Shown: positions 4,073 to 23,219 of the stretch, in pieces
Layout of the letters: the number at the start of each line of letters is the position of its first letter
Numbering within the stretch: the stretch's first letter is position 1
Origin: a virus
Length of the DNA: 30,610 nt
IMG/VR virus record: IMGVR_UViG_3300009068_000122
Coordinates: 1 to 30,610 of that record
Strand: one strand, 5' to 3'
The notes under the pieces: model-generated
The model's input: only the letters and a program-made list of their open reading frames with translations
Database searches by the model: none
Told to the model about the DNA's origin: nothing
Program-made: the position numbers and the translations under genes

Positions 4073-7000
4073 GACCAAATACAGATTTAGATGTTCTTTT
4101 TTGTGGACCAAATGTGCTTCTTTTTCCTTCTTTTTGTTGACCAAATGTGCTTCTTTTAAATGTTCCATCAGAGTTCTTTCTGCTTTTTGAAACAGGTATA
4201 TAACCCTCTTCCTCATCTTTTTGTCTTCTCAACTCTTCTCTCAACCTTTTTTCAACATCCTTCTCGTCTTGATGGTTTTTATACCAATCAGATTGCTCTC
4301 CAAAGTTTTTTTCGTAAATAGATGGCTGATACCTTTTTAAATCAGACTCGTTGTCATATTCTTTTCCTGTATTAGGATCGGTAAGCAATTCTTTTTTAAG
4401 TTCTCTTTCTGCTCTGTTCTCTTCAGCAATTACCTTTTTCTCTTCATTAGTAGCCTCTAGTTCATTTATCTTTTCATCAATTGCATCTAATTCTTTACTA
4501 GAACTTACATCTTCACGTATCTTATCAAGTGCTTCTACTTTTTGATCAATATCTTCTTGCTTTTGTTCTTTTCTTTCTATTGCATCAGCTTTTTCCTCAG
4601 TTGATTTGCCTTTACCTTTTTTAGCATCTTTAATGGCATTTTTTACAATACTATTTATTTCAACAGGAGCTAATCCAACATTAGATAAAATAGCAGGACC
4701 AATAAGATACCCTAAATTTTCTTTATTTTTTTCTGAGATTTGTTTTACTTTACCATATTCATCAGTATACTCTCCGGTAGTAGCTAATTTTGAGATGTCA
4801 TATAATTGTGAGGCTCTATCTGCTGCTATACCAAATAACCCAAGACTTTGTACATACTCTTGTTTAGGTACACCATATATCGAGAACACACTTTCTTTTG
4901 GAATATCTAATAAAGTTTCAGTTAAAAAATTACCTCCTTTCTGATATGCTTTATCTAATATTGGTAGTGGAGACATTACATCAGTAAATGAACTTGTAAC
5001 TTGACCTTTAATAACATTATTAACTCTTTTTTTGTATTCTTCATCATCCTCATCGTCACCCATTGCTATCTTAGCTAATGATCCTAACAAAATAGCAGAC
5101 CCTGCAGCTACCATTTTAAAAGTAGCCATTTCCACAGCAAATCCACTTAATGAACGAATAGCAATTTTTTTATCTTCCTGAGTAGATGTTTTATCTGATA
5201 ATACAGCAAGGTCAGCACCTAGTCTTGCAGATTGGTTCATTCTAAAACTTGCAAAAGGCATTAATATTTTAACAAATAATTGATTAGATGATTCTTTATT
5301 TGAAAACATCTTGCCTGCAAGGTCTGAATCTGATACGTTTTGTTGTCTATCAACCATACGTTGTGCATAATCAGCAGCCTGCTCATTTACTTCGTGTGTA
5401 TTGTAATCTATTCCATTAGGATTAACACCTTGTTTCTTTAATGATTGCTCATAATAAGTTATCCAAGATGCACGTGCAATAAATAAATCAGGTTTAACTA
5501 AAAACTTTTCTAGCCACCATTTATTTAGTTGCTCAACTTTTTTAACAAGTGCCTCCCCTTTTGATTTAGATGCTTCATCAATTAATTTATTCAATGATTC
5601 AACTTGAGCTTGAGATTCAATACCCCTATTTGATATAGCGTATCCTGTTCTATTAATAAAATTATTTTTTGCAGCACTAAAAATCGCCCCCATATCTAAA
5701 CTGCCGGCATTTACAAGTGTATTCATTGCTACAGGTATAACCTGTTTAATTGGTTGCAATACGCCACCTAATGCTTGACTAACACCAATATTTGCAATTT
5801 TATTAAGGCTTCTTACAGCAGCAGATAACTCATCATTTGAGTATGGATTTTTATTTCTAATATTTCCAACATACAATTGGATTCTATCTTTTAAAATTTT
5901 AGCATCCTCTGCTTTGGGAACAATCTTTTTAAAATCAGATGAATTTAAAAATGCCTCAATTTGCCTGATTGGAGCAGCAGTACCCATATCAACAAGTGCA
6001 TCGTACATAGCATTTGCATTGTTTTTATCAAATGATAAATCAATAAACATACTTGTCTCTCCATTCTTAGAATTTGTAGGTAATACTTCAGGTTTAACTG
6101 CAGTCATCAACACTCCTGTTTCTTTTTTATAAATAGTCCCATTATTATTATGAAATGCAGACTCATCATTGCTTAGTTCAACATTACCTGTTTCTGAGCT
6201 TAATTTAACAAACTTATCAGGAGTGTAGTTTAAGTCTTTGTCTAAAACTTTATTATATACATTCTCAGATACATCTGACAATTGCTCATATTTGTCTGCC
6301 CACTCTTTATTCCAAAAGTCAACACCATCTAAGTTTGTGTTATCGGTCTTATCTTTTACTGCTTGAATAGATTGAGAGTCCTTCAGAACTTTATCGTATA
6401 CTTTTTTGTATAGCTCTCCCTTTTTTTGCTCTTGTTCGTTACCCTGAGAAAGAACATTAATAGACTCTTCTATTAATCCTTTTCTTCTATTAAACTCATC
6501 CTGCATTTCATTTTCAGTTCCAATAACATTTCTAATCATAAAAGCAGCTAACCCACGTTCAACACTATTGTATTCACTATTGTATGCCTCACCATTTGCT
6601 TTCTTATTATAGAACTGACTTACATATTTATCAACAATATTATTAGCTTCTCTTTGAGCCATTGACTTATTGTTCTTTAACTTGGTAACTCCCATAGCAT
6701 CCTCTACTTCACCACCACGATTAAACCCTTTAAACATTTTCTCAAACAACACGTTTAAGTTTGTAGTTTGTTCTCCTAAGAATCTACCAAATTTTTCTGA
6801 CCAATATTTTTTTAATGGTTGAGCAACTACACCCTTTTCTGCTAATTTTTTTGCATTGAAATTTGCTGTGTATTCTGATAACACAGTCTCCATTTTTGCA
6901 GTAGAATGATTTTCTAAAAAATTTGCTAGTGCATCTACAGTTTGTAAAGCTTCTTTTGGTTTTAATAAAGAAAGGTCCATATCCATAAACCTTTTAATTA

Positions 7001-10000
7001 AAACTTTTTGATTTTTGGTAAACTCTACATCTTCATCATTAAATTGGTCTTTACCTGTTTTTATTGTTGCATTAATAATGCTTGAATAAATATCAAACAT
7101 CTTCTGAATAGTATCTCTAATGATACTTTCATTGTATTTTGTAATAGGTTGTTTACTATCTAACAATTCCATCATCTGATCATAACTTAACTCAGATACA
7201 TCAATTCCCATTAAGTCTTGAATCTCTTCAGCTTTTTGTTCACGAATCTTTTCATCTTGAGCAGTTAAAGTCTCAGTAATGTAATCAGTTGCATTCTCAA
7301 TGTTTACTGTATCTGCAAACGTAACTTTTTCTTTTCTAATAGTAGAACCTTTAATAGCTTCTTTAATTTTAGAAGCCATATTATTATAAGATTCAATATC
7401 TTCAACCATTGATGGATCAATCTTTACAAATTTTTGAGCCATATCTCTAAGATTGGCATTCTTGTCTTTATTCTTTGAAAGTTTTGATATATCTTTTTTA
7501 AGACTATTTGCTTGATTTAATTTAGACACATAGTCTGCCTTTGCAAAAACCTTAGTCATATAGTCAGTAAATGAATTGATTGACTTTTGACTAAGCACAT
7601 TTACTTTACTAAACTTGCGAAGAACATTAGCTGCTTGATTTACTGTTAACTTGCCTTGTCCAACTAATTCTTTTACTTCTTTACTTAGTTGTTGAGTAGC
7701 TATAGTAATAGCAGTCTTAGCATCTTTTGCTCCCCTTGCCAAATCTTTTATTTGCTTTATAAGACCTTGCTTCTCAGTCATTGTTATTTTGGTAACATCT
7801 TTAATGTCTCCAATAATCTTTCCTGCTGATGGAACTGCTTTTTCTTTAACTCCAAACATTTTATTTACATCACGAACTAATTTCTCACGTTGTACATCAG
7901 TCGCTTTTTCATATACTGATGATTTTGTGACATAGTTCATCACACTTTCTTTTGTTCTTTCATTAGAAGCACCACGCTCTTGTGATCTTTGAATTATACC
8001 ATCTACCTCTTGCATCATCCTATCGTATCCCGGCAATACCTCTTCAGATAACTCTACTTTCTTTGCTGCCTCTGTTGGCTTTTCAAGTGCAGAAATTATT
8101 TCTTGTTCATTAAAATTTTTATCTTTAAGAACTTTTGTTATTGCCTCTTCTGATATACCATTGGCTCTACCTATTTTTATTATTTCATTTATATCTGTTA
8201 TTGCAGACATCCTAGCTTTAAATGCAGCTACCGAAAGTTCAGGAGCAAATTTTGCAGAAACTTCTTTTCCTGAAAATAAATCAGCTAATCCTGTATTTAT
8301 AAAATCCTCTAATTTAATTTTAGATATTTTATTTACATCTAAATCTTTAAACGTAATAAATTTTTCTTGTATATATTTAAATACAGCATTTAACCAAGAT
8401 TTAAATTGTGATTTTTTAGCAGCATCAATAATAGTTGCACCTTTATTTGCCATCAATTCTACCAATGCTTCTTCTAATGCTAATTCATTATCACCATACT
8501 TTTCAATTGCTTTTTTATGTTCTTCTGTATTTTTAATTAATCCTAATCCTCTATCTAATAAATCAGTTCCTTTTTTACCTGATTCATCTGAACGTAAAAA
8601 ATCAATCCATATATGACCAAATTCGTGTATTGGTGTTTGTAAAGATGCCATCTCAGGATTCAAGTATATCTTGCCATCTTTTGTAACTCCAAGTATTATT
8701 TTACCATTTGATGTTTCAGTTCTTACATCAGGACTATTAATTATATTATTAAACTCTTCTTGTGTTGTTGAAACACTAACACTTGGAAAAGCAAATCTCA
8801 ACTTTCCAATCAATAAATTTAAATCATCTATTAGTCCTACAGAAACTTTTGCTCCTTTAAATGCTTTATCAGTAAAAAATGCTCCTCCTGTTTGTATTGC
8901 TACACTTTCAGGTGACGGAACTTTACCTGCTTTGTTTTCTTTAAATACTCTTGAGGTTTTAGCTTTCCATTCAGGAAATACATCTATACCGTGCGTAGGA
9001 TTCTCAATTAATGCAATAGTTTTTCCTTTAGGTCCAAAGCCATAGTTCCCGTGTTCTACAGGTATAACACCTCCATTTTTAACATCTATACCAACTATGC
9101 TAACAACCTCACCCTGTTTAGTTTTTAACATTGATGGTTCACCTATAGAATTATAAATCACATCAGAAGTAAATAATTTATTTCTAGAGTTATCAGTTCC
9201 ATTTAATAATGCTTTTACAGTTGGTTTACTAGCTGTTTTAATTCCTTTTGGAGCAAAAATTAAATCATATATCATTGACCTGTTGTCAAGTTTTAATTTA
9301 GACTCAACATTTCCTTTTGCTCTATTATTAGAATCTGAAATAATTTCTTTTAAAAATTGATTAAGTGATATTACTTTTTTCTCTTTAATAAAATCTAATA
9401 TTCTTTGTGCAGATGATGCATCTGCTTCACTTTTTGTATTTAACTTTTCTTTAACAGATTCAATAAATGCTTTCATTGCATTTACATTATTTTTCTTAGA
9501 AAACTTTTCTACCGTTGGGAGTATCCATCTAAATACAGCCTCATTTGAGTTAACTGCTGTGTCAGCCATTCTCATAATAGCCATAGGGATGTGACCATCA
9601 GGTAATTTTCCTTCAGACCAAAGTCTATCAAATAGTTCTTTATTTGATTGATATAATTTAATAGCATTATCATACTGTGCCTGAGCACTTTCTTTATTTA
9701 CACCTGCCCAAGCTGCTTCTTTATTTTTTCCTAATACATTAAATAATAAACCACCTTCAACATCCATCTCATTACCTTCAGAATCTTTTATTTTTCCTGC
9801 AGATAACATATCAGACATACCTGTTATCATAGGTATACCATTAAAAGATTGGATTGGTTTTAATAAAGCATCACCTGTTTCTTTATCAATTTTAACTGTT
9901 GAATTTGATTCAGCTACCGGATTTACTTTTAATCCTTTTTGTGAAACTTCAGGTTCAGTAAAATTAAGTTCAACTGCAGGCATATTATTCATTTCTTTCT

Positions 10001-12032
10001 CAATGACCTCTGTATCAGTCGTAAGTGGTTTCTCCGTTTCTTCTGCTAATCTGAATTTTGGTTCTCCACTTGGAGTTCCTAATAAAGCGTGCAATTTTTC
10101 TGCTTCAGCATCAATTTGTTCTTTTGTTTTTACTTCTTCCTTAATTTTAGGAGCGATGGTTTCTTTGGTCCCTGCGGTAGTTCCTTCAGGTTGGATGTTT
10201 CCTTTGCCCACTTCTTGCAATCCCACTTCGGGTTGTTGGCTGAGTAACACGCCTTCATTTGTTGTTTGTTTTTGAATGGCATTTTCTTCTGATTTTACGG
10301 TTTCTAATGTAGCTTCTTCTTGTAATTGATTCTCTTGAATATCTTTAATTTGACTTCTAACAGCAGCAGCTTTATCCTTGCCCGTTTGAGTAGTATTGCC
10401 TTCTAATTTTTTTAACTGTACTTCTAAATCTGTAATGGCATTTAAACTTGGTTCATTCAAATCAGGATTGCCTTGTCTTACTTGTTCTTTAACTGAGTGA
10501 GAAACAATTTTATCTTGTATTTTTAACTCAAGAGGACGATCATTCTTTATTTCTAATTTGGATTTGATTAACTCAGCACCACTCATTTTGTCTAAAAGAT
10601 CAGGTGCAATATCAGGATTAAGGACTATACCATTTAATTTATATGAAGGAGGAGGACCCTTTGGTTTTTCCTGAAACTCTTGCATTTGCTTTTCTATGAT
10701 AGCAGCTTCAACTTCTTTTCCTTGTTTTCTTAGTATCTTGGCATTTGCACCCATTGCATTAAGCAAAAATCCAACACCAAAACCCACACCACCTGATTCA
10801 CCAACACCCTCAAATAAATCTTGATTAGTATTGTATATATCTTTTGCTGTTTTATTAGAATATAGTTGTTGTAATATCTCTGTAGTCATCTCTTCTGTAC
10901 CACCTACAAGACCACTAATTGTTTTTGTTTTAAGATAATTCTTTACCCCACCTGCTGTTGCTTTATCAAATCTTTTTAAAAATCCCATAACAGGGATTGT
11001 TTCTAAAATTGATCCTACTGATGCATTTTTTAAAAATGCCTCATATGCTTGGTCATCAGTAGCACCTGCCTGTATTGCTCTATCAAATTCAGCTTGACCC
11101 ATTGAAAGACCTGCACTAATTGAAGTAGGAGCAGATAACTCAGCTCCAACAGTTTTTAATGTACCTGAAACAACTCCTGCAGCTTTGGGAGCAGTTTGAG
11201 AAGCTAACTCTGCCATCTGTAATGCAGATGTTGATTTTCCTGCAGCACCTGCAGCTTTTGCTGCACCTCCTGTTGCTATTAATGATGCTACTTGCCCAAA
11301 TGCTTGAGCAAATTGATCTGATAAACTATTTTTATACTCTTCATCTTGAGGAGCAAGTTCATCAATCATTTTATTGTAATAGTCACCAAATTTAATTAAA
11401 GCATCAGTAATAGGTTCTTTACCTGATGTGCCTGTAACTTTTGCATTTAATCCTTGAATAAGTGTACCTAATCCTTTAATAGGATTACCAATAATATTTT
11501 TAGCAAACCCTCTATCTAAAGCTGCTGCTGTATTATTTATCCAATTACCAATTGATTCTAAAGTTGATTTTTCTTCTTTTGGAGCTTCTTCTTGTTTAGG
11601 CTCCTCTTTAGTAGTAGGGTATTTTATTTTTACTGTACGTGCTTGTTCTTCAGGAGTTAAAAAACCACCGTAATCAGGTCCTGTTATCTTTTGATTAAAA
11701 ACTCCAAGTGGTGTTTGGTCCACTTGTTGACGCACAGGTGGTACGTCAGTTGGTCTAACCGGTATTGGATTACTTGTCGAAGACTGCGAATCCAAAGAAG
11801 TATCTTCCGAAGGAGACCCCGTATAAGGTTGAACTCCGGGTATTGCGTTTGGTACTTGCTCTTGCTGAGGAGCCATTGGAAGTACGGGACTGACTTTTTT
11901 TTTTAATTCTGTACCATCTTCAACTTTTACAAACGCACCACTAGCCAACATCTCTTCAAACCTTGCACCATAATAACTTCTTAATTCTTGTTCAGTTGCT
12001 ATTGTCCCGTTTGCTGTTTTATATTTATTCAT
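4065..12032 (-). CDS. Giant internal virion (ejection) protein with zincin metallopeptidase motif (2655 aa)
   Basis: The N-terminus (MNKYKTANGT, then ELRSYYGARFEEML) is the short opening domain seen in many large phage internal proteins. A Pro/Ser/Gln-rich linker follows (about 45-125). Next come an Ala/Gly-rich helical region (about 240-430), charged coils and another linker (about 500-700), and a globular part that includes a zincin motif HEFGH at 1136-1140 with candidate third ligand E1188 in EEALVELMANKG. After long coiled coils, a conserved C-terminal region contains MPFASFRMNQ (from M2258) and a hydrophobic segment (about 2305-2325). The end is a charged coil closed by a period-11 repeat. 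Last of three internal proteins, it occupies the place of T7 gp16 but shows a peptidase rather than a lysozyme motif. Likely role: injection with the DNA, cutting a host or virion protein. No RNA polymerase DxDxD motif was seen. Confidence 0.85.
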   Translation of the reverse strand: MNKYKTANGTIATEQELRSYYGARFEEMLASGAFVKVEDGTELKKKVSPVLPMAPQQEQVPNAIPGVQPYTGSPSEDTSLDSQSSTSNPIPVRPTDVPPVRQQVDQTPLGVFNQKITGPDYGGFLTPEEQARTVKIKYPTTKEEPKQEEAPKEEKSTLESIGNWINNTAAALDRGFAKNIIGNPIKGLGTLIQGLNAKVTGTSGKEPITDALIKFGDYYNKMIDELAPQDEEYKNSLSDQFAQAFGQVASLIATGGAAKAAGAAGKSTSALQMAELASQTAPKAAGVVSGTLKTVGAELSAPTSISAGLSMGQAEFDRAIQAGATDDQAYEAFLKNASVGSILETIPVMGFLKRFDKATAGGVKNYLKTKTISGLVGGTEEMTTEILQQLYSNKTAKDIYNTNQDLFEGVGESGGVGFGVGFLLNAMGANAKILRKQGKEVEAAIIEKQMQEFQEKPKGPPPSYKLNGIVLNPDIAPDLLDKMSGAELIKSKLEIKNDRPLELKIQDKIVSHSVKEQVRQGNPDLNEPSLNAITDLEVQLKKLEGNTTQTGKDKAAAVRSQIKDIQENQLQEEATLETVKSEENAIQKQTTNEGVLLSQQPEVGLQEVGKGNIQPEGTTAGTKETIAPKIKEEVKTKEQIDAEAEKLHALLGTPSGEPKFRLAEETEKPLTTDTEVIEKEMNNMPAVELNFTEPEVSQKGLKVNPVAESNSTVKIDKETGDALLKPIQSFNGIPMITGMSDMLSAGKIKDSEGNEMDVEGGLLFNVLGKNKEAAWAGVNKESAQAQYDNAIKLYQSNKELFDRLWSEGKLPDGHIPMAIMRMADTAVNSNEAVFRWILPTVEKFSKKNNVNAMKAFIESVKEKLNTKSEADASSAQRILDFIKEKKVISLNQFLKEIISDSNNRAKGNVESKLKLDNRSMIYDLIFAPKGIKTASKPTVKALLNGTDNSRNKLFTSDVIYNSIGEPSMLKTKQGEVVSIVGIDVKNGGVIPVEHGNYGFGPKGKTIALIENPTHGIDVFPEWKAKTSRVFKENKAGKVPSPESVAIQTGGAFFTDKAFKGAKVSVGLIDDLNLLIGKLRFAFPSVSVSTTQEEFNNIINSPDVRTETSNGKIILGVTKDGKIYLNPEMASLQTPIHEFGHIWIDFLRSDESGKKGTDLLDRGLGLIKNTEEHKKAIEKYGDNELALEEALVELMANKGATIIDAAKKSQFKSWLNAVFKYIQEKFITFKDLDVNKISKIKLEDFINTGLADLFSGKEVSAKFAPELSVAAFKARMSAITDINEIIKIGRANGISEEAITKVLKDKNFNEQEIISALEKPTEAAKKVELSEEVLPGYDRMMQEVDGIIQRSQERGASNERTKESVMNYVTKSSVYEKATDVQREKLVRDVNKMFGVKEKAVPSAGKIIGDIKDVTKITMTEKQGLIKQIKDLARGAKDAKTAITIATQQLSKEVKELVGQGKLTVNQAANVLRKFSKVNVLSQKSINSFTDYMTKVFAKADYVSKLNQANSLKKDISKLSKNKDKNANLRDMAQKFVKIDPSMVEDIESYNNMASKIKEAIKGSTIRKEKVTFADTVNIENATDYITETLTAQDEKIREQKAEEIQDLMGIDVSELSYDQMMELLDSKQPITKYNESIIRDTIQKMFDIYSSIINATIKTGKDQFNDEDVEFTKNQKVLIKRFMDMDLSLLKPKEALQTVDALANFLENHSTAKMETVLSEYTANFNAKKLAEKGVVAQPLKKYWSEKFGRFLGEQTTNLNVLFEKMFKGFNRGGEVEDAMGVTKLKNNKSMAQREANNIVDKYVSQFYNKKANGEAYNSEYNSVERGLAAFMIRNVIGTENEMQDEFNRRKGLIEESINVLSQGNEQEQKKGELYKKVYDKVLKDSQSIQAVKDKTDNTNLDGVDFWNKEWADKYEQLSDVSENVYNKVLDKDLNYTPDKFVKLSSETGNVELSNDESAFHNNNGTIYKKETGVLMTAVKPEVLPTNSKNGETSMFIDLSFDKNNANAMYDALVDMGTAAPIRQIEAFLNSSDFKKIVPKAEDAKILKDRIQLYVGNIRNKNPYSNDELSAAVRSLNKIANIGVSQALGGVLQPIKQVIPVAMNTLVNAGSLDMGAIFSAAKNNFINRTGYAISNRGIESQAQVESLNKLIDEASKSKGEALVKKVEQLNKWWLEKFLVKPDLFIARASWITYYEQSLKKQGVNPNGIDYNTHEVNEQAADYAQRMVDRQQNVSDSDLAGKMFSNKESSNQLFVKILMPFASFRMNQSARLGADLAVLSDKTSTQEDKKIAIRSLSGFAVEMATFKMVAAGSAILLGSLAKIAMGDDEDDEEYKKRVNNVIKGQVTSSFTDVMSPLPILDKAYQKGGNFLTETLLDIPKESVFSIYGVPKQEYVQSLGLFGIAADRASQLYDISKLATTGEYTDEYGKVKQISEKNKENLGYLIGPAILSNVGLAPVEINSIVKNAIKDAKKGKGKSTEEKADAIERKEQKQEDIDQKVEALDKIREDVSSSKELDAIDEKINELEATNEEKKVIAEENRAERELKKELLTDPNTGKEYDNESDLKRYQPSIYEKNFGEQSDWYKNHQDEKDVEKRLREELRRQKDEEEGYIPVSKSRKNSDGTFKRSTFGQQKEGKRSTFGPQKRTSKSVFGPR
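4073..4157 (-). repeat. 33-nt direct repeats encoding an STFGPQ-type tail
   Basis: GACCAAATGTGCTTCTTTT occurs exactly at 4106-4124 and 4139-4157, and a diverged third copy starts with GACCAAAT at 4073. The period is 33 nt. In the 2655-aa protein these encode three 11-residue units (RSTFGQQ, RSTFGPQ, KSVFGPR), a basic C-terminal tail. This is probably a recent tandem duplication; a role as a virion-incorporation or binding tail is speculative. Confidence 0.7.
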
Positions 12033-12044: not shown

Positions 12045-13925
12045 TTATGGTACACAATTTCCGAATTGATCTCTAGGTTTACCGTTTGCACAAGGTGGTA
12101 ATTTGGCATTTGCTCCTCCTAATTTTTTTAATATATTTTCTTTATCTGCTTTTGGAATAGTCTCTAAGAAATTTAATAAATTAGTTTTTTGTCTTTCAGC
12201 TCCATCATCATCTTCTTGGTTAGAGTTTATAGTTACTGATTTATCTTTATACCTTAATGTAATATCATTGCCTAAAAATTTAGCAGGCTCTATTATTACT
12301 CCTGTGTTTTTAAAATATGGAGTTAATTTATCAGCAGCAGCACCACTTTTTGTATTTTTAAATAAATCATTAGGAATAACTGAGAATTTTTGAGTAAATG
12401 CTGTTTCTACATCAACTTCAGGAGCACCTACATCTACAAATGCTCTTCCTTTTCCTGCTGTATTAAATTTAGCACCTTGAAGTAATCCTCCATTCTGTAT
12501 TGCAGTAGCAGCATTAATATTTCCTGCTAATAATGGTGCTGCTTCTTTAATAAACTCTTCTTGAGTCATTATATTTCCATCAGCTCCTTTAAATGGCAAT
12601 CCTCTTGTTACTATTTTTTTAGTATCAGGGTCTTTTATTTTAACAGTAACTCCATCTGCATCTCTACTTATATCTTGTATGTCTGAGTTCATATCCCTAA
12701 ATGCAGTAAGAGCTTGTTGAATTTGTTTATCACTTCCTCCCCATAACGCTCCAATGTCTGATGTAATAGCAACATCTTTTTTCTTTTCTAGACCTGCTTT
12801 ATATTGATATTCAGGTACTTGAGGTGCGTAAGGAGTAGTAGAAGTAACTTTAATATTTCTTTCTCTATCAAGTTTACTTAACAATTGATTTTTAACCCAA
12901 TCTCTTGCTTCTTGTACTTGTTCTTTATAATGAGGACCATTTTCATCCAAAACAGGAAGACCTGAAGTTGGGTTAATTTTTAAAAGTAATTTACTTGAAT
13001 CACTAGCTTCATTTTTATCATACGTATATGAGTCTTGATGGTATTTGTCTGTATTTTGAGTTAATACAGAAGATATATGATAAGAATCTGAAAAATATCC
13101 ATCAATAGTTTTATCTATTGCTGAATTAAAATTATTAATTATTTCTTTGTAATCACCCATTTTACCTTTTAACTCAGGGTGTTCTTTTTCAAGATTATCT
13201 AATGCTCCAACTCCCATTAATTCAACAATACTACCTGCTTTTGAATTAGTAGCGACTTGGTATATAAAATCTTTTTCTTTTCCTAAATGTGAGATGGTAG
13301 CATTCATTGCATCATCAACTTTAAAAGCACCTATTTTAGCTAATATTTTTCCTTTAATAACATTAACAGGAACAACATCATTGGTTAATTCCATTACTCC
13401 TTGAGCATTTGGTTTCATTATGCCAACATTTATATTTCCTGTGTAAGGATTAATAACTGCTTTTGATTTTGAAAAATCAGCAAACCCCTCAACACTACCC
13501 ATATTATAACCTGTTAACGCTTGAAGGTCTCCACTTTGTATTCCTTCCATTGTTGATTTATAATTATCTTGATATAATTTTTGTAAATCAAACAATTGAT
13601 CAGTACCGTCTATATAATTTTGCCTTCTTAATGTAAAATCTTGCAATTTCATTTGACCTGATTTTAATAATCTAGTGTCAATTAATTGCTGTGCCATCAT
13701 ATCGTGAGCAAAATTATTTGTAAATTTATTGCCATCTTGAAATTGACCTTGAGGAGCTTCTGCTAGTTTATTTTGAAATTGACGAGTAGATTCATCAATA
13801 GCTGCCTTTTTTTGTCTACGAATTTCAGTTTCTGCTTGAAGCATATCGGTAACACCCTTACCTATTTCTGCCCAATTTACTTGACTATCTGCGTTCCGTT
13901 CTGCGTATTTATAATATGTTGGCAT
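12045..13925 (-). CDS. Internal virion protein, T7 gp15-like position (626 aa)
   Basis: A 626-aa soluble protein, mostly helical in the first half (MLQAETEIRRQKKAAIDES, then AHDMMAQQLIDTRLLKSGQM), with a more beta-rich second half. Its place between a small membrane-prone core protein and a giant ejection protein corresponds to T7 gp15, a component of the ejected trans-envelope channel. Sequence features alone do not prove that. It ends with CANGKPRDQFGNCVP, a short two-cysteine tail of a type seen at the ends of phage virion proteins. Double stop TAA TAA. It starts 16 nt after the 272-aa gene. Confident as a virion protein, moderate for the gp15-like role. Confidence 0.75.
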   Translation of the reverse strand: MPTYYKYAERNADSQVNWAEIGKGVTDMLQAETEIRRQKKAAIDESTRQFQNKLAEAPQGQFQDGNKFTNNFAHDMMAQQLIDTRLLKSGQMKLQDFTLRRQNYIDGTDQLFDLQKLYQDNYKSTMEGIQSGDLQALTGYNMGSVEGFADFSKSKAVINPYTGNINVGIMKPNAQGVMELTNDVVPVNVIKGKILAKIGAFKVDDAMNATISHLGKEKDFIYQVATNSKAGSIVELMGVGALDNLEKEHPELKGKMGDYKEIINNFNSAIDKTIDGYFSDSYHISSVLTQNTDKYHQDSYTYDKNEASDSSKLLLKINPTSGLPVLDENGPHYKEQVQEARDWVKNQLLSKLDRERNIKVTSTTPYAPQVPEYQYKAGLEKKKDVAITSDIGALWGGSDKQIQQALTAFRDMNSDIQDISRDADGVTVKIKDPDTKKIVTRGLPFKGADGNIMTQEEFIKEAAPLLAGNINAATAIQNGGLLQGAKFNTAGKGRAFVDVGAPEVDVETAFTQKFSVIPNDLFKNTKSGAAADKLTPYFKNTGVIIEPAKFLGNDITLRYKDKSVTINSNQEDDDGAERQKTNLLNFLETIPKADKENILKKLGGANAKLPPCANGKPRDQFGNCVP

Positions 13926-13941: not shown

Positions 13942-14760
13942 TTATCGGGAAAATCCACTTAATTTTCTCATCTTCCTAAGATTCTTATAATTTTGCTGAC
14001 TAAGATAATCTTGCAATTCATTAGATTTCATAGACCCTAGACTAGATACATCAAACCCATATGCTCCACCTGTTGGACCTCCCATTACTTGAACTGCTTG
14101 ACCAAAAGGTAAAGGATTACCATCTTTCATATAAACATCTTTTAATGTTTTATTTTGAGCAGCATTAGCATAATCTGATTGCAATTTTGAATATTCTTTT
14201 GCCGATTTTGTTTTTTGATATAATGGCATTTGTTCATATACTTGTTGCCCAATACTTGTAAGACCTTGCATACCTTGTGTTAATGATTGAGCACTTAATT
14301 CTTCATTATTTGCTGCTGCTAACTGAGCACCTGCAACCTCTTCCAAGTCTAATTGAGTTCCTACATCACGAAGTCTACTATCTTCTTGAGCACTTAATTT
14401 CTCAAGACCACTTAACTCTTGACCCATTGCAGACCTTATTCCACCCTGACCTTCATTCATAGCCATTTGTACACGACCTGCAGTTGCTGCTGCACCTCTT
14501 TCGCTTTCTACACCTGCTTGAATAGCTTGAGCACCCTGAGAAAGAAGAGCTTCTCTTTCTAACTCATATGGTTCTTTTTGTATAGATAATTTATCATAAT
14601 AATTTACCTCAAGTTTTTGTCTAGCTTCTTGCATAGCTTTACTTGCATCTGCTTCGGCTTGACGTTGTGCTTTTTTTTGCTTTCCTGCTTGCACAAATGA
14701 CATAGAAGTAGAGGCTACTGATAAACCTATTCCAATTGCTGCTGCTGTTCCAATTGCCAT
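13942..14760 (-). CDS. Internal core protein, T7 gp14-like (272 aa)
   Basis: The N-terminus MAIGTAAAIGIGLSVASTSM is a Gly/Ala-rich hydrophobic segment able to insert into a membrane. It is followed by a long Ala/Gln/Glu coiled coil (about 28-175) with QAIQAGVESERGAAATAGRV and GQGGIRSAMGQELS, typical of small podovirus core proteins such as T7 gp14, which enters the host outer membrane during ejection. The C-terminus is basic (NLRKMRKLSGFSR). The order small, medium, giant with the two downstream genes mirrors T7 genes 14-15-16. The start is one base after the upstream stop. Confidence 0.78.
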   Translation of the reverse strand: MAIGTAAAIGIGLSVASTSMSFVQAGKQKKAQRQAEADASKAMQEARQKLEVNYYDKLSIQKEPYELEREALLSQGAQAIQAGVESERGAAATAGRVQMAMNEGQGGIRSAMGQELSGLEKLSAQEDSRLRDVGTQLDLEEVAGAQLAAANNEELSAQSLTQGMQGLTSIGQQVYEQMPLYQKTKSAKEYSKLQSDYANAAQNKTLKDVYMKDGNPLPFGQAVQVMGGPTGGAYGFDVSSLGSMKSNELQDYLSQQNYKNLRKMRKLSGFSR

Positions 14761-15184: not shown

Positions 15185-15964
15185 TTAAGGAAAACTTTTC
15201 ATTACTTCTGATTGCACGGCAAATAACTCAATTTTACTACTAGATGTATTCTCAATACTAAATGTACAGTAATGCCCTAGCACCCCGTGAGACTCAGCTA
15301 CTGAGTTTTTTATATATAAGAAAAATGCATTTTGTATAGGTATCGGTGTAGTTCCCGGAATAGTAGTATCAATAGTTAATTGGTTTATACCATTTGGTAA
15401 GTCTACTGTAATTGCTGTAACTCTTCCTGCTAAAACAGGAACAGTATAAGGAGGTAAAGAGAAATATAAAATATCTCCTACACTTATTATATTCCCTATA
15501 GAAATTGATGCAGAAAACTTAACTATTACTGCTGTTCCACTTCCTGTAACTTGATAACTTCTGCCTATACCATTTACACTCCTAAGAGCAAGTTGACCTA
15601 ATGTATTGTTTCTTACAAACGCAAAATAAGAGGCTTCTTTTTTCTCAAACCAAGAGGCTTCAATAAATCCTGAGTATTGCAAATCTGTTTCTAATGCTGC
15701 AGACCAACTTGCATCTCCTTGTAAATTAATAGTCTTAAATAATTTATTCTCTAAAGGAGCTGTATTTAATACACTTTGTAATGTGGTAGGACTAAATTGT
15801 CCATAGAATGTATTTCTAGAAGCATTTACATTATGCCTATATAAATTACCTCCCTTAAAAGTATAGAAATAGTTATTCATCCCAATCATCCAATCAGGGT
15901 AGTATGAGTAAAAAGATACCCATCCTCCAACCATATCACTATATGTTAATGTATAATTTGCCAT
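15185..15964 (-). CDS. Beta-rich virion/tail protein (259 aa)
   Basis: The N-terminal half contains GGWVSFYSYYPDWMIGMNNY, then FYTFKGGNLYRHN and NTFYG. This GW.SF...P.....NN.YYTF..G.L..H....RN.FYG pattern is familiar from tail-associated proteins and from the large stabilisation proteins of crAss-like and marine phages. Residues about 140-219 form a separate beta cassette (SVGDILYFSL, then RVTAITVD and FFLYIK) similar in layout to inserts in the capsid and a connector protein. It follows the Cys-rich protein by 12 nt. Probably exposed on the tail or muzzle; the exact place is unknown. Confidence 0.7.
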   Translation of the reverse strand: MANYTLTYSDMVGGWVSFYSYYPDWMIGMNNYFYTFKGGNLYRHNVNASRNTFYGQFSPTTLQSVLNTAPLENKLFKTINLQGDASWSAALETDLQYSGFIEASWFEKKEASYFAFVRNNTLGQLALRSVNGIGRSYQVTGSGTAVIVKFSASISIGNIISVGDILYFSLPPYTVPVLAGRVTAITVDLPNGINQLTIDTTIPGTTPIPIQNAFFLYIKNSVAESHGVLGHYCTFSIENTSSSKIELFAVQSEVMKSFP

Positions 15965-15976
15965 TTTTTTATTTTA

Positions 15977-16792
15977 TTAAGGTACAGGACAATAAGGATA
16001 TCCTGAACCCATAGTTTGCACGTGATCGTATGGATCGTTAGTAAAATAATTTACATAATATATAATATCAGTATCAATCCTATAATATAAATTAGCTGTA
16101 GCTCCATCTCCCGGAAATACAACTATAGAACCTATAGGTGTACAACTGTCATTGTAAATAGTACAATTAACATTTATTGCAGGAGGTGCACAAACAGCTT
16201 CACAAGCTTCTAAGTTAATATAATCACCACCACTACCACTAACTTCTACACAAGTGCCTGACTCGCAATTATATGATGTAACAGGAGTAAGACTACAAAC
16301 TGCTTCACACTCTACCAATGTAGCATAGGTTCCACTTCCATCTCCCGGATCAATACAAGTTCCTGATACACAATTAAAAGAAACAGGTTCTGAACAAGGT
16401 GTTATTGAGATAAATCCTGAATGAGGGAATCTATAATCATAACAATTTACACCGTCACTATAAAATCCTGCAGGAGCCTCAATAGTCATAGCCTCATCTA
16501 CCCATAAGTAACAATAGTATAACACAAGATTTTCACAATTACTATAATATGTAACAGTTGTTTGAGTACAAGCATCTGTACAATCTACTGTACTATATCC
16601 TAAATCGTGTGGAAAAGAACAAGATGGACAAGTTTGTTGTGGTAATAAAACACAATCTACTTGTTCCCTTGAGATTACCCCATCTGAATAAAAACCATCA
16701 AGAGCACAAGTGGTTAATGCACTATCTGTAAATACAGCAGTAGCTGACTCAAGAGAGGGTGCATTTATGTAATATGATGAAGATACTGCCAT
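15977..16792 (-). CDS. Cysteine-rich repeat virion protein (271 aa)
   Basis: About 20 cysteines and two kinds of internal repeat are visible. GFYSDGV occurs twice (ALDGFYSDGVISRE and APAGFYSDGVNCYD). Two 35-residue Cys units share the spacing C-x4-C-x15-C-x3-C (GTC...ECEAVC and GTC...ACEAVC). Such repeats occur in surface and tail proteins of Bacteroidota and their phages, so a tail fibre or spike-like role is likely. I chose MAVSSSYY at 16792, 10 nt after the upstream stop, because the neighbouring virion genes also start MA after a short A/T leader. An in-frame ATG at 16837 would add 15 residues and overlap the previous gene. Disulphides could form after release. Confidence 0.7.
   Translation of the reverse strand: MAVSSSYYINAPSLESATAVFTDSALTTCALDGFYSDGVISREQVDCVLLPQQTCPSCSFPHDLGYSTVDCTDACTQTTVTYYSNCENLVLYYCYLWVDEAMTIEAPAGFYSDGVNCYDYRFPHSGFISITPCSEPVSFNCVSGTCIDPGDGSGTYATLVECEAVCSLTPVTSYNCESGTCVEVSGSGGDYINLEACEAVCAPPAINVNCTIYNDSCTPIGSIVVFPGDGATANLYYRIDTDIIYYVNYFTNDPYDHVQTMGSGYPYCPVP
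16190..16375 (-). repeat. Tandem 35-codon cysteine repeat
   Basis: Two adjacent units in the Cys-rich protein have identical cysteine spacing and shared residues (NC.SGTC.....G.Y..L..CEAVC). The DNA is diverged, so this is an older duplication rather than a recent one. Confidence 0.65.
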
Positions 16793-16802
16793 ATAATATA
16801 TT

Positions 16803-19800
16803 TTATGTTGGTATTGTACAGTTACAGCAAACGTCAAATAAATCTACATCTGAGTAACAAAGTGTAACAGAAACTGATTTTCTAAAATCCCATATCAAAT
16901 ATAGATAATCTTTAAGTGTTGGCACAGTAAAATCTGCGTAATTATATGAACCACTACCTGAATTAGGTGTTGCAGTTGTTGCTAAACCTAATAAAGTATT
17001 TATATCAGTAGTAGTATTATTATACAATGTATCTGAAACCAAGTACTTAAATTTGTCATTAGCAGGATTAAATACAAATGTATCTGTAGCAAATTGGTTT
17101 GAAATCAAACTCATTACGCTTCCTGCAGGAGGGAACCCTCCTGTACCAACAAAGTCTGTAGTTACATTGTATCTTGATACAAGAGGATTGGTAGTCCCAT
17201 CAGCAAAAATTACAAAACTTGATTGTAATGGAGAAACAAATTCCCCACTAATAAATCTATATTGAGTATGAACTGTATTACCTGAATCATAATCACTTGT
17301 TAAAACAATTTGTACTATGTTTAAAGAATCAGCATTACAACAATCAGCAGTTACTTGTAATGTAATATCTCCTATATAATTTATTGTAATAGTAGCAATT
17401 TCTACTGATACATTATTTTTATTAAATGTTAATGTACCTGAAGTATTTACAAATCCTGTAGTATAAGTATTACCATCATAATCAACTACTACCTCAAACT
17501 CTGCTCCTGATGATATAGCTCCAACTCCATAAATAACATTTGTTAACCCTACTGTTGGACCTAAGTCAACACAATATGTTGTTTGTTTTGCAATTTCTGT
17601 TGGATTTGATAAATTAAATACTTGAGAAATACCACAGTTTATACATTGAGGATTAGATGGTAACTGTATGTCATTAGTTGATAAAACATATTCATTCATA
17701 TATGGATCAAACCCACCTAACTTTTGAGTGCTAAATGAATTATTAAAAGTATCTCTAAACCAAGTACGCATATTCATTTCAGATACCACTTTTAATTGGT
17801 CATTTGAACTAGCATCGCCTCTTAGTTGAATAACTACACCACGTTTTACATCTGTAAAAAATCTATCGTATCCCCACTGAATATAACTTTCAGGATTAAA
17901 ACTAACTCCATATTTTTCAGTACGAGCAATTTGGGTTCCTAATACTTCAGGAACTGAAGTTACTGCACCACCACCTGTAGAATCAGATAATAAATTTTTA
18001 CCTGTCAATACATATGATATTTTATCTTCTTGCAAAACAAGTACATCTGTTTGCCTTCCATCCATTACAAAAATATCGCCAAACGATCTTTCTAAATTTT
18101 TGTAGTTTAATAATCCTAAATTAAATTCATTTAGTTTATTTATGTTTGACTCTGCATTATATACACCACTATAAGTAATATCTGAGAATCTATCAGTTGC
18201 TTTATAATCTTGTGCTGATACACTTGTAACCCTATTGCCAAAATTAAAAGACCTCCCAACAATTGAATCACGAATCTTGTAACTTTCTGCTCCATTTCCA
18301 AATGCAAAACAATTAAAAAATTTAGTATCAACAATTGCAGGTGTACCCGTACCTATATTTTGGTTTTGAATGTTACCCATATGGTTACCACCTGTAATAG
18401 CAAATGACATTTCATTTTCAAAAAATACATCAGGTAAAGCATCAGATGGTTCTGTTTCAAATATCAAAGTATTTTCAGCACGGAAAACAGTAATATTTGC
18501 ATCAACATCAGAAGAACGATTGTTTGGATATCCAACACCTGTACAACTTTTTGTACCTGTAATCATTAATTCTAATTGATTGGTAGCTGTATTTCTATAA
18601 AATCTATAGTAATTAGTTACTAAATCTGTTGGTATATCTCCTGCAGCAGTTGCAATTGTATTAATAAAAACATTTTTAGGTACATCATTTCCACAAGCTG
18701 CAGTTACTATACAATCTTTTAAAATCTGATCAATATTATCTCCTATCCACCAATCATACATATTGTCATAATTGTTAGAAGCTGTTATTGTTTTTTCTAA
18801 TGTACTTGACCTTTCTTCACAAGAACATCCTACTCCTCCACGATTTTGTTTAATACTTAAAACAATCCTACTACCTGATGGTACAGAGTAATCTACCCAA
18901 GCAGATGTTACTGTATCATAATAATTCATTGGGTAATATAAAATAGGAAATGTTCCCGGACCTATTATACCCGGATTCGCTGCTCTTTCGTGTCTTTTTC
19001 CCGGAGCAATAACTGCTAATTCATCTTGAACAACAGTAAAGCTATTCGGATTAACTTTCATATAAACCCCTGCAGGAATTGGTATAAAAACAGTAGGGTC
19101 TAATTTACTTGGAACTTTAATAAAATTTGATGACTCCGCATTTTTATCTAAAACAGTTGTATAGACACAACTTGTAGTTGCTCCATTTGAATCTGCTTTT
19201 ACAATAAGTCTATCTCCCTTTTCAACTTTTCTTGCATTCTCTCCTGCAAGTAATAAATAAGCATCATTAGTTAATGGGTCTTGAAAATATATACTACAAT
19301 AAATTGTTTCATAATTCTCTTGATCAGGTTTAATAACAAACTTATATCTTGTTGCCCAAGCAGGAGGTAATTGTGTAGGTGGTATTGTTACTTGTATAGA
19401 ATTTTTACTAGCAGATAATCCACAAGGTACGTGTTCAGTATTATTAGGACTTACTAAAGCAGTTGTTGCTCTATTAAAATCATCCATATAAACTATACCA
19501 ATCTCATAGTCACGATTGCTATGCAAACTTTGTGGACTAGCTATTTCTTGAAAAGTAGCGTTTGAGTATAATACTCTATAATATTCATAAAAAGTTTGAG
19601 TTGGAGTTGTTACATTATCTACATATTCCATTGCAATAAATTGCAATCCTATTACATTACTTCCCGGACTTGTTATAATTGCAACAGGTTGACCAACTGC
19701 ACTAATACCACTTGCAACTTTTATGTATGCATCTAAGTTATTTGGAAGCAAACAGTTTACTGAATCAGTAAATGTTGTTCCTAAACAAGCATTGGGTACC

Positions 19801-21236
19801 GTCTGTATATTTATAGCAGTGCCTATTGCATTTTGAAACTCTACACTTGTAGCTAATTCATATACTGAATTGTATGTTGTAGATAAAAAGAATCCAAAAT
19901 TTAAAACTATTGCAGTTGTAACTTCAGTAGGATATGGAGTTTCTCCTGAAAATCTAGAATGGTCTATAGTTACATCTATATTGAAAGAAGAACCTGCTAC
20001 TAATTTTTGACCTGTTAAATCAAAAGTAACTGCAGAATCTGCAACAGTAACTGCTCCATTTATACTATAATTACTTGAAATTACTGAATCTACAATATTT
20101 GAATTACCTATAGGAAGAGAAACTAAATCAGTAAAATATTCAAATTTAATAGGAGACCCAAATTCATCAACTAAATTATATCCTTCTACATAATTACCAT
20201 ACATTAATCTATTGCCCATAATTGTTTGAGCTTTAGCGTATCTAGGTACATTGTCATATAATCTTAACAATTCGCTTTCAGCTAAAATTGTAAAAATTTT
20301 ACTATTTGTAAACGTATAATTATAATCTGTATTATTTGCTAATCCTAAATTTGCTTTATTTAATTTCTCAATAACTTTAATAATGTTATTGTTAGATTGT
20401 TTAAATAACAACTCCATACCAACTACAAGTGGACCACCTGAATTGTAAGTTACTATAACAGAATTACAAAAGTTAGTCATCCCTTCATTTAAAAAATTAT
20501 CTGTACTAAACCTAAAAGGATTAGGAACAAATGCAGGTTGAGACCATTGTGATGTAGCACTGTACTCTCCATCAATGTATAAATATCTGTAAGCAAAACA
20601 AATAAACCTTGTATCTAAATAGTTTTCTTGACCATTGGTAACAATAGGTTCAATAGCAGGAGATTCAGTAGGTGGTTTTTTAATAACAAGCAATGACTCT
20701 GCACTAACTTGATCTATATTTAAAACAGGGTTAGGGTAGTTCCTACTTACATTTATAAATCTAGGAGCATTGTAATCATCAGTGAAAAATAATAATCCAC
20801 CAATAATATCAACTCCTGTAATAAGATAACTTGAATTAAAATTTAAAGTTGTATTTATATTACCACCATCATTAATACTAATAACGTGATACGTAAGTAT
20901 GTTTGTATATATATTAAAAGAAACAATTAAATCAAGTTTTCCTGTGGCTCCTATTGGAAAATTATTGTCGTGAACAAACCAATACAACGTCTCATTAGCA
21001 CTATCTTCAACAGCACCAATACATCTTGCAGTTGCACTTAATGGTGTACCGTCTATATATGTTAATGATGTAAGAGATAAATTACCTTTTGTATTTTCAA
21101 TTACACCAACTTCAGAATTTTCGGTAGAACCCATTCTGATATTCATAGCATCAATATATTCACCTTCAGGTAGAAGACGTTGGTCAACAACCTTATTCAT
21201 TCTTCCTGCTATAAAGTTCCTTGTAAAATTTGCCAT
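16803..21236 (-). CDS. Muzzle/stabilisation-type tail protein (1477 aa)
   Basis: The N-terminal block (FIAGRMNKVVDQRLLPEGEY, then DAMNIRMG, ENSEVGVIENTKGN) is the hallmark of the stabilisation proteins of crAss-like phages and related podoviruses, distant relatives of P22 gp10. In crAss001 such a protein forms the muzzle at the tail tip. Repeated blade-like segments (about 70-200) suggest a beta-propeller. A second conserved block (GKNLLSDSTGGG, then EKYGVSFNPESY and GYDRFFTDVKRG) lies near 1075-1140. The C-terminal 400 residues are beta-rich, with CCNAD and a Cys-rich end (C1460, C1470, C1471, C1473). It starts 1 nt after the connector gene. Probable function: closing the tail and contacting the host surface. 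Confidence 0.82.
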   Translation of the reverse strand: MANFTRNFIAGRMNKVVDQRLLPEGEYIDAMNIRMGSTENSEVGVIENTKGNLSLTSLTYIDGTPLSATARCIGAVEDSANETLYWFVHDNNFPIGATGKLDLIVSFNIYTNILTYHVISINDGGNINTTLNFNSSYLITGVDIIGGLLFFTDDYNAPRFINVSRNYPNPVLNIDQVSAESLLVIKKPPTESPAIEPIVTNGQENYLDTRFICFAYRYLYIDGEYSATSQWSQPAFVPNPFRFSTDNFLNEGMTNFCNSVIVTYNSGGPLVVGMELLFKQSNNNIIKVIEKLNKANLGLANNTDYNYTFTNSKIFTILAESELLRLYDNVPRYAKAQTIMGNRLMYGNYVEGYNLVDEFGSPIKFEYFTDLVSLPIGNSNIVDSVISSNYSINGAVTVADSAVTFDLTGQKLVAGSSFNIDVTIDHSRFSGETPYPTEVTTAIVLNFGFFLSTTYNSVYELATSVEFQNAIGTAINIQTVPNACLGTTFTDSVNCLLPNNLDAYIKVASGISAVGQPVAIITSPGSNVIGLQFIAMEYVDNVTTPTQTFYEYYRVLYSNATFQEIASPQSLHSNRDYEIGIVYMDDFNRATTALVSPNNTEHVPCGLSASKNSIQVTIPPTQLPPAWATRYKFVIKPDQENYETIYCSIYFQDPLTNDAYLLLAGENARKVEKGDRLIVKADSNGATTSCVYTTVLDKNAESSNFIKVPSKLDPTVFIPIPAGVYMKVNPNSFTVVQDELAVIAPGKRHERAANPGIIGPGTFPILYYPMNYYDTVTSAWVDYSVPSGSRIVLSIKQNRGGVGCSCEERSSTLEKTITASNNYDNMYDWWIGDNIDQILKDCIVTAACGNDVPKNVFINTIATAAGDIPTDLVTNYYRFYRNTATNQLELMITGTKSCTGVGYPNNRSSDVDANITVFRAENTLIFETEPSDALPDVFFENEMSFAITGGNHMGNIQNQNIGTGTPAIVDTKFFNCFAFGNGAESYKIRDSIVGRSFNFGNRVTSVSAQDYKATDRFSDITYSGVYNAESNINKLNEFNLGLLNYKNLERSFGDIFVMDGRQTDVLVLQEDKISYVLTGKNLLSDSTGGGAVTSVPEVLGTQIARTEKYGVSFNPESYIQWGYDRFFTDVKRGVVIQLRGDASSNDQLKVVSEMNMRTWFRDTFNNSFSTQKLGGFDPYMNEYVLSTNDIQLPSNPQCINCGISQVFNLSNPTEIAKQTTYCVDLGPTVGLTNVIYGVGAISSGAEFEVVVDYDGNTYTTGFVNTSGTLTFNKNNVSVEIATITINYIGDITLQVTADCCNADSLNIVQIVLTSDYDSGNTVHTQYRFISGEFVSPLQSSFVIFADGTTNPLVSRYNVTTDFVGTGGFPPAGSVMSLISNQFATDTFVFNPANDKFKYLVSDTLYNNTTTDINTLLGLATTATPNSGSGSYNYADFTVPTLKDYLYLIWDFRKSVSVTLCYSDVDLFDVCCNCTIPT

Positions 21237-21237
21237 T

Positions 21238-22161
21238 TTATTTTATTTGCTTGTCCATACCTCTCATATTCATTAAGAGTCTACCGGGATGGATATTACT
21301 AATTCTGATTTTTGCATTTCTAAGTAAAGCACTTTGCTCTTTACGAGCACGAGAAACGATATATTCCTGCACTCCTAATTTAGCATTTAATATCTCATAT
21401 TTAATATATGCATATATATATTTCTCAAATAACTTATTAACAGTAATCAAAGAATTATCCCCTTGTTCCATACCATCAGATACATACTCAAGTATACAAG
21501 ACTCACCTGACATTGACGAATCAAAATTAATAACTCCTGCTTTTCTTTCAATATTAAAAGTAGGGTTAAAGTTTGCAGTCTCTGTATTTAAACCATATGC
21601 TGTACCAATGTTGTAATCAAAATACCACATCCCATCATAGTTCCAACCTAATTGTCCATTAAATTGACTGCCTTGATTTAAATATATACTTTTCTTTATA
21701 TGCGTTAATCTATCGTAATCTATCTCAGAATACTGAGGACTCAATGCATTTCCAAATTGATCAAATAAAATCCTTCCTGTATTATCTTGAAGATATGCTT
21801 TAGATGAAAGGGTTTGAATATTCTCAGACAATGGACGCAACCATCCATTCTTATATAATGATACACGTACCCAATTGACGTAGTCAGAAGGTAATATGAA
21901 TCTTAAATTGTCAGGAACCGTTAACTCTAATACTTTAATTTCTTTAAATGCATCGTAGTTTAATTCTTGTATTGCACGCTTTGCGTGAAACAATATTTTA
22001 TAACGCTCTTCATTATTAACTAATGAATGGTTTCCTGAATACATTAATAAAAAATTGTTGACAATATCTGTTAAACTAACGTATTGATATGAACCCCAAT
22101 TTTTATCTTCAGGTACTACCCCACCATTCTCATAATATTGATATTGTGATATATATGCCAT
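21238..22161 (-). CDS. Tail tube/connector protein (307 aa)
   Basis: Residues 26-90 (YVSLTDIVNNFLLMYSG, then ERYKILFHAKRAIQELNYD, ELTVP and FILPSDYVNWVRV) match a family of connector or ring proteins of crAss-like and T7-like environmental phages, in which a helical part is followed by a P.D.V..V.. strand. In those phages such proteins sit under the portal as a ring or tail-tube component. The C-terminus is basic (SRARKEQSALLRNAKIRIS). It ends one base before the muzzle-type gene and starts 12 nt after the 317-aa gene. The structural role is likely; the exact ring number is not decidable. Confidence 0.75.
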   Translation of the reverse strand: MAYISQYQYYENGGVVPEDKNWGSYQYVSLTDIVNNFLLMYSGNHSLVNNEERYKILFHAKRAIQELNYDAFKEIKVLELTVPDNLRFILPSDYVNWVRVSLYKNGWLRPLSENIQTLSSKAYLQDNTGRILFDQFGNALSPQYSEIDYDRLTHIKKSIYLNQGSQFNGQLGWNYDGMWYFDYNIGTAYGLNTETANFNPTFNIERKAGVINFDSSMSGESCILEYVSDGMEQGDNSLITVNKLFEKYIYAYIKYEILNAKLGVQEYIVSRARKEQSALLRNAKIRISNIHPGRLLMNMRGMDKQIK

Positions 22162-22173
22162 TTTTTAAATTTT

Positions 22174-23127: not shown

Positions 23128-23141
23128 TAGTTCTTTTTTTA

Positions 23142-23170
23142 CAAATATACATAAAAAAAAGAGGACACAA
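23142..23170 (-). promoter_or_regulatory. Bacteroidota-type promoter (TTG-N18-TATATTTG)
   Basis: On the minus strand TTG (23170-23168) is followed after 18 nt by TATATTTG (23149-23142), matching the published Bacteroidota primary-sigma pattern (TTG about 19 nt before TAnnTTTG). The start ATG of the 317-aa gene is 15 nt further on. The upstream element lies inside the terminator hairpin and the spacer contains its T-tract. Confidence 0.65.
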
Positions 23171-23181
23171 TTAGTGCCCCC
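23153..23181 (-). terminator. Intrinsic terminator after the 247-aa gene
   Basis: Minus strand: GGGGGCAC-TAATT-GTGTCCTC, an 8-bp stem (two G:U pairs) followed by eight T. It lies 38 nt after the stop of the 247-aa gene and ends the capsid transcription unit. The plus side is less T-rich (TTCTTTCTT), so it is chiefly a minus-strand terminator. Confidence 0.75.
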
Positions 23182-23219
23182 TTCTTTCTTATTTAATCAA
23201 ACAAAAACTAAGATATTTA

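Follow-up and report, generated by a model that had tools for sequence, protein, structure and literature searches.

A zincin metallopeptidase-like domain in an exchangeable slot of a giant podoviral ejection-type protein, possibly acting on a host protein after injection

In the large polyvalent proteins that phages and conjugative elements encode, zincins have been described as the commonest domain, and 12 metallopeptidase (MPTase) clades have been published for these proteins (Iyer et al. 2017, PMC5512222). Among giant podoviral proteins that are injected, the N4 virion RNA polymerase (vRNAP) gp50 contains an HExxH-bearing zincin-like C1 domain (PMC12633501). The N4 vRNAP region with the zincin-like domain was reported to be required for encapsidation, and the protein to be packaged unprocessed (PMC5512222). 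In T7, the lytic domain of gp16, a transglycosylase, occupies amino acids (aa) 1-156, the periplasmic N-terminal part of the protein; this type of peptidoglycan-hydrolase domain was described as phage-specific and absent in P22-like phages (PMC8954989). Here, we describe a zincin metallopeptidase-like domain in the middle of a 2655-aa ejection-type protein encoded by the IMG/VR virus record IMGVR_UViG_3300009068_000122, which was analysed over its whole length of 30,610 bases (hereafter the window) and probably is a fragment. With a probability of roughly one half, this domain is a zincin of the polyvalent-protein kind, residing in an exchangeable slot of the giant protein and cutting a host protein after injection.

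The original prediction, made from the window's letters, had placed the motif HEFGH at aa 1136-1140 of the 2655-aa open reading frame (ORF), followed by EEALVELMANKG, and had taken both as signs of a zincin. Both sequence features were confirmed: HEFGH occurs once in the giant protein, and a degenerate DNA version of the motif was found a single time in the window, on the minus strand and in frame (Table 1), with 0 matches in 100 shuffles; the second glutamate of EEALVELMANKG is E1188. A chance motif was ruled out, since HExxH was present in 6 of 2000 composition-preserving shuffles of the giant protein, and since a motif-free control search (described below) recovered it throughout. In the AlphaFold2 model of aa 1041-1300 (predicted local distance difference test (pLDDT) 85.7, predicted template modelling score 0.85), helix 30-41, strands 46-48, 72-78 and 81-84, helix 92-107 carrying HEFGH and helix 142-167 carrying E1188 follow one another (model numbering). 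This predicted core corresponds in its order to the polyvalent-protein MPTases, for which an N-terminal helix, a three-stranded sheet and two C-terminal helices were described, with HEXXH on the first of the latter and a glutamate on the next (PMC5512222). Extra helices were modelled between the two core helices, a place where variable inserts are allowed in polyvalent MPTases (PMC5512222). Further likenesses to these proteins are the combination of several disparate domains in one polypeptide (a companion domain and the zincin in the window; LPD23, weakly GNAT-like stretches, a second zincin and an HDxFGH domain in relatives) and the location among late virion genes. Thus, the active-site layout was present in the predicted fold, with weak support from structural databases, and the statement in the original prediction that zincins are known in large polyvalent phage proteins was borne out.

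The family found in the window differs from the described zincin-like MPTases of polyvalent proteins in that no Pfam or NCBIfam model covering it was found, and in the companion domain and exit module that accompany it. For the zincin domain, no Pfam match above the cutoff and no NCBIfam match were obtained; the nearest Pfam miss was DUF7809 in one of five domains scanned (L086; E 1.1e-4, 23 bits against a cutoff of 27), located before the motif. The PHROGs search of the zincin members gave only scattered weak matches, among them the metallo-protease phrog_87 (2 of 66 members, best 1.3e-4) and phrog_2579, labelled 'ParB C-terminal domain' (1 of 66 members, 2.8e-21). By sequence, the PDB held no match for the giant protein and one irrelevant match (E 1.6) for the zincin profile. 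No description of this zincin in these phages was found in the open PMC literature, and as far as this literature shows, the zincin family with its companion domain, together with the shuffling of slot contents and bodies within one lineage, is new. Zincins in polyvalent phage proteins (PMC5512222) and ejection-protein mosaicism in general (PMC8954989) are already known.

Conservation was evaluated in an alignment of 64 domains, comprising the window and 63 of 71 loci that had been dereplicated from 103; the eight weakest bacterial loci (L106-L113) were omitted, several of which have F or Y at the W1142 position. H1136, E1137, H1140 and E1188 are constant across the 64 domains, as are G1115, T1133, W1142, G1162, G1198 and F1244. 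The invariance of HEFGH is partly circular, because this motif formed part of the viral and bacterial search patterns. For the control search, patterns were therefore taken solely from the stretch after HEFGH (alignment A3), the E1188 region included. An HExxH was found upstream in all 49 loci recovered (45 HEFGH, two HEYGH, one HEFAH and one HEVGH), 42 of the 49 contigs having already been among the best 80 of 168 viral relatives, and the other seven including all four variant motifs. The motif, whose conservation the original prediction had named as a check, is accordingly retained wherever the domain is present.

Substitution rates were compared for a single pair, the window and the related locus L001. 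The ratio of nonsynonymous to synonymous substitutions (dN/dS) was 0.12 for the zincin and 0.06 for the preceding companion domain (aa 700-1040), while the stretch directly following the zincin gave 0.16, the linker preceding the two domains 0.25, and aa 1340-1540 0.46. In this one pair, both domains look to be under purifying selection. The companion is an alpha/beta domain that was matched in 57 of 79 viral zincin loci (L012-L090) and was modelled together with the zincin with a pLDDT of 87.9 (aa 700-1280). No known fold was found for the companion domain, most of model residues 1-361 having been barely tested.

On the minus strand of the window lies a podoviral virion gene cluster with the giant ORF as its last gene, and the claim of the original prediction that a zincin-type domain is part of this protein is supported. 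A giant gene was also found at a comparable location in seven of seven relatives inspected (MW202828, Panino, Gundel_1, elemoC, phi38:1, phi46:3 and Calle_2), and blastp ties only part of these seven proteins to the window protein. As with T7 gp16, the window gene is the last and largest of its set, and its product has a basic C-terminus (net +10 across the last 40 aa). The gene order would be compatible with a place after candidate gp14-like and gp15-like genes, which are named as such by position only. On account of this gene position and of the precedents of T7 gp16 and N4 vRNAP, the giant protein is most likely packaged and ejected. In T7 gp16-like proteins, hydrophobic segments would be expected on either side of the cytoplasmic hub; by hydropathy, such segments flank the zincin on both sides in 19 of 74 relatives and on the C-terminal side only in the window.

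The gp16-like position in the cluster, together with the transglycosylase at the N-terminus of T7 gp16 (PMC8954989), would also suit a role in envelope penetration, with the domain acting as an endopeptidase on peptidoglycan or the envelope in place of the gp16 lytic domain; the original prediction had held that a protease motif takes the place of that domain. This role is very unlikely and the replacement is not supported, because the T7 domain is N-terminal, whereas the zincin is located centrally in a protein of twice the size, is accessory, and shares its slot with unrelated domains, including weak GNAT matches in the relatives G003 and G007. Furthermore, the whole window protein gave only two weak and irrelevant Pfam matches at E 1 or less, and no N-terminal peptidoglycan-hydrolase or transglycosylase domain was found in it at this threshold.

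The exchange of the domain became apparent from two relatives. L001 shares 85% identity with the window protein over aa 462-1543 but continues into a different C-terminal body, whereas L002 is 76% identical over aa 1328-2630, with the zincin absent. At the DNA level, identity between the window and L001 is 90% across gene positions 1504-4504, with no blastn match past that. Among the 79 viral loci (L012-L090), the zincin region is present in 79, which is how they were found, and the window's body (aa 1560-2100) was matched in four; some of these contigs end early. The two bodies, referred to as A (window) and B (L001), show no mutual blastp similarity over aa 1560-2540. Body A was found with this zincin in the window, L031 and L038, with the HDxFGH domain in L002, G005 and G012, with a second kind of zincin (HEVAH) in L163, and with neither motif in G007. 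Body B occurs with this zincin in L001 and in another 22 loci (near-identical contigs counted), with HDxFGH in G004 and G010, with the second zincin in G003 and elemoC (elemoC at 24% body identity), and without either motif in G001 and G006. Each of the four slot states was therefore observed with each of the two bodies, giving all eight combinations. Another 53 loci contain this zincin but neither of the bodies, in part owing to contig ends. Left out of the tally are the bacterial loci L091-L113 as well as L011, which lies on the contig of L001, and some HDxFGH copies, e.g., that of L054, escape its motif test. The giant gene of G002 is cut by the fetched region and was tallied by its tail protein, a zincin of the second kind having been seen on reading; those of G008 and G013 are cut as well, and G009 and G011 were not read beyond the zincin check.

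The two kinds of zincin look homologous by profile comparison (hhalign 92.8%, with a three-sequence template), and the companion domain, compared with the domain beside the second zincin of L163 and G003, reached a local probability of 10% and a global one of 68%. No profile similarity to the zincin was detected for the HDxFGH domain (0.7%), of which only the L002 copy (aa 1017) matched PHROG 3170, the other copies having been assigned by similarity or motif. The slot of G003 gave an LPD23 match above the cutoff (E 4.5e-11), the weak GNAT matches and a SprT-like match just below the cutoff; in that of G007, a stretch appeared ART-like by eye beside the weak GNAT matches. The HDxFGH domain is strongly conserved (L002, G004, G005, G010, G012, L066 and others), either fills the slot or lies upstream of the zincin, and occurs twice in L081. 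Two HExxH motifs per giant protein were seen in MW202828 (L004; aa 1615 and 2500) and in G003 (L249; aa 897 and 1523).

In the proposed mechanism, H1136, H1140 and E1188 would coordinate the zinc, and E1137 would act as the general base. Together with its companion, the zincin forms a cassette that occupies a slot in the middle of the protein; the N-terminal part precedes this slot, and the C-terminal body, which probably contributes to the genome-delivery channel, follows it. Other cassettes fill the slot in related phages. The whole giant protein would be packaged, would exit the virion with the DNA and refold in the host, and the zincin would then cleave a host protein early in infection, e.g., a defence or regulatory protein. 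The analysis shows the motif, the predicted fold, the conservation, the signs of purifying selection, the late-gene context and the cassette exchange, while packaging, injection, catalysis and a host (non-self) substrate are inferred.

Weighing against this reading, Foldseek returned nothing significant from the PDB for the zincin model or for the longer model (aa 700-1280), and no evident zincin was among the 50 matches listed for the former. In a second pass over 344 of Foldseek's chains with VIA-align, every Z value remained below 8, i.e., within the tool's ambiguous range, so that the fold call depends on the motif, the layout and the consistency of the match list. In favour of the reading, all matches at Z of about 4 or more were zincin-fold proteins, including Zmp1 proteases and ACE2, with MATCAP also among the top-ranked. 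The closest solved folds were M34-like zincins, namely lethal-factor domains (Z 6.9 and lower, best over 158 residues, part of the matches being to the N-terminal, non-catalytic domain), PPEP-3 (Z 6.4, 154 residues) and PPEP-1 (Z 5.7); the Z values are too low for membership, and these proteins differ from the window domain in lacking a sequence-level match to it and in their delivery and organism. Also in favour, the longer model aligned weakly with aa 2156-2372 of N4 vRNAP (PDB 9pnr; Z 3.7, 152 residues, root-mean-square deviation 6.9), a range that overlaps its HExxH-bearing C1 domain (PMC12633501). Unlike N4 vRNAP, the window protein has no recognised polymerase, and its domain is exchangeable between relatives. 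In BFVD, the matches included proteins of Gundel_1 (E 2e-7) and elemoC (6.5e-3) and the uncultured phage protein cr108_1 (1e-2), which, going by its name, we take to be crAss-like.

Further points against the proposed mechanism are that several contigs are cut short, that near-identical contigs count separately in the tallies, and that, given the encapsidation requirement in N4 vRNAP, such a domain can be structural. Retention of the zincin fold for structure or packaging only, without catalysis, is nevertheless improbable in view of the invariance of both histidines, the general-base glutamate and E1188 in all 64 domains (seed-biased for HEFGH, with the control search finding HExxH throughout) and of the related phages that are devoid of the domain. 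The main rival, which we regard as unlikely but far from negligible, is that the zincin acts on the giant protein itself or on a second ejection protein, either within the prohead or once injected, and releases domains by this cleavage. Such self-processing was proposed for DdrB of phage P1 and for polyvalent proteins generally (PMC5512222), would suit a very large multidomain protein, and would agree with the exchange between bodies too, as a protease can cut inside its own cassette. In contrast, the giant proteins of G007 (body A), G001 and G006 (body B) contain no HExxH, a zincin elsewhere in these phages having been searched solely with the profile of this family, and neither body therefore seems to need its own zincin for processing. 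N4 vRNAP, moreover, is packaged without being processed (PMC5512222). An injected effector acting on the host agrees better with the accessory nature of the zincin, its movement between bodies, its apparent selection and the sharing of its slot with other domains than an injector component or an enzyme required for processing would.

Two recurrent elements frame the giant proteins. In 54 of 107 zincin proteins, a short helical exit module (aa 1285-1317 in the window) follows HExxH at a distance of 148-187 aa; in a search of 123 proteins, 58 modules were found compared with 0.6 expected (near-identical contigs counted). It also ends the second-zincin cassettes of L163 (aa 2276) and G003 (L249; aa 1728), and is possibly UBA-like. 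At the N-terminus, [LVIA]KKK[ED] occurs within the first 160 aa in 53 of 96 non-redundant sequences (0.36 expected), compared with 3/96, 1/95 and 0/93 in internal windows of the proteins, and a tandem pair of modules of about 30 aa was detected in 58 of 77 dereplicated viral cases against 4 of 151 internal windows. Several types of the N-terminal module were noted, mutually unlike by eye and often followed by LKKK[E/D]. Possibly, the tandem modules and LKKK[E/D] serve as a virion-loading tag. The window is without a strict form of the pair or the motif (LKKKV at aa 43-47 has V instead of E/D), and L163, which has the same N-terminus, was scored as not duplicated.

It is conceivable, though we advance it only tentatively, that the giant ejection proteins of this Bacteroidota-phage lineage represent a polymorphic effector system built into a DNA injector. 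An N-terminal tag, recognisable in many members and in the window only as LKKKV, would load the protein, one of several bodies would build the channel, and the slot closed by the exit module would carry an effector (one of the two zincins, HDxFGH, or GNAT-like or ART-like domains) that phages exchange with one another in the face of differing host defences.

The zincin was found mainly in one podoviral lineage, the named isolates of which infect Flavobacteriia. Homologues of the window's virion genes were detected in 74 of the 80 viral loci, the other six having less than 5 kb upstream of the match. Stretches of viral contigs encoding a related portal number at least 600, and the lineage is therefore common. 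Among 87 portal-related phage records, Flavobacterium phages prevailed (68, elemo phages), followed by those of Cellulophaga (15), Tenacibaculum (2, Gundel_1) and Maribacter (1, Panino) and by MW202828; tblastn detected the zincin in three of the 87, namely Gundel_1 (twice) and MW202828. It was also present in two of 13 portal-related contigs picked for length among 80 listed, and absent in L163 and L002, which had been added as known negatives. In bacterial assemblies, at least 23 zincin loci were found, 20 of them titled as Bacteroidota taxa, and homologues of the window's virion genes in two of the 23 loci listed. The same zincin was seen in large ORFs of bacterial assemblies at L092, L093 and L095-L113, with no homologues of the window's virion genes detected.

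The features of the window are compiled in Table 1. A 136-aa gene (14762-15172, phrog_17252) is retained among the virion genes of many relatives, and its counterpart in MW202828 is annotated as an N-terminal acetyltransferase complex subunit. A 286-aa cysteine-rich ORF (15977-16837), which contains a repeated C..GTC-like unit and has no match in PHROGs, is located near the site of a putative glycosidase in MW202828. The giant proteins of Gundel_1 (gp074) and elemoC are annotated as structural protein, and those of MW202828 (741-12320) and PP540027 (28228-33717) bear the unlikely names 'reticulocyte binding/rhoptry protein' and 'tRNA methyltransferase', respectively, for which Pfam scans gave no support.

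Table 1. Features of the window (IMGVR_UViG_3300009068_000122) discussed in the text.
Feature	Position	Strand	Basis or remark
Giant ejection-type protein, 2655 aa	4065..12032	-	last gene of virion cluster; ORF reading
C-terminal body type A, aa 1328-2630, common to relatives without this zincin	4143..8051	-	76% identity to L002, ~51% to L163
Short helical exit module, aa 1285-1317	8082..8180	-	motif search
Zincin metallopeptidase-like domain, aa 1069-1260	8253..8828	-	AlphaFold2 model, VIA-align, conservation
E1188, predicted third zinc ligand	8469..8471	-	64/64 alignment rows; helix 142-167 of model
HEFGH, aa 1136-1140: two predicted zinc-ligand histidines and general-base glutamate	8613..8627	-	
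Companion alpha/beta domain, aa 700-1040, usually accompanying the zincin	8913..9935	-	model, blast matches, dN/dS
LKKKV, aa 43-47, non-strict form of the relatives' N-terminal basic motif	11892..11906	-	V instead of E/D
626-aa neighbour, possible gp15-like ejection protein (position only)	12045..13925	-	phrog_35506, labelled function unknown
272-aa virion structural protein, possible gp14-like (position only)	13942..14760	-	phrog_13764
Virion cluster: tail and structural genes, major capsid candidate, portal, terminase large subunit	15185..30609	-	

Giant internal proteins whose purpose is unclear are found in many phages, and here both kinds of body occur either with the zincin or without it, which amounts to a natural swap experiment. 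The injector is hence separable from its payload, and self-processing and attack on the host become testable against each other, for which cultured phages exist, with this zincin in Tenacibaculum phage Gundel_1 and the second kind in the Flavobacterium elemo phages (as seen in elemoC 14-1A). Should the N-terminal pattern be a loading signal, it would allow payloads to be recognised in other phages. The occupancy of the slot by differing domains suggests that the zincin is an injected weapon open to exchange, as opposed to a constant component of the injection machinery.
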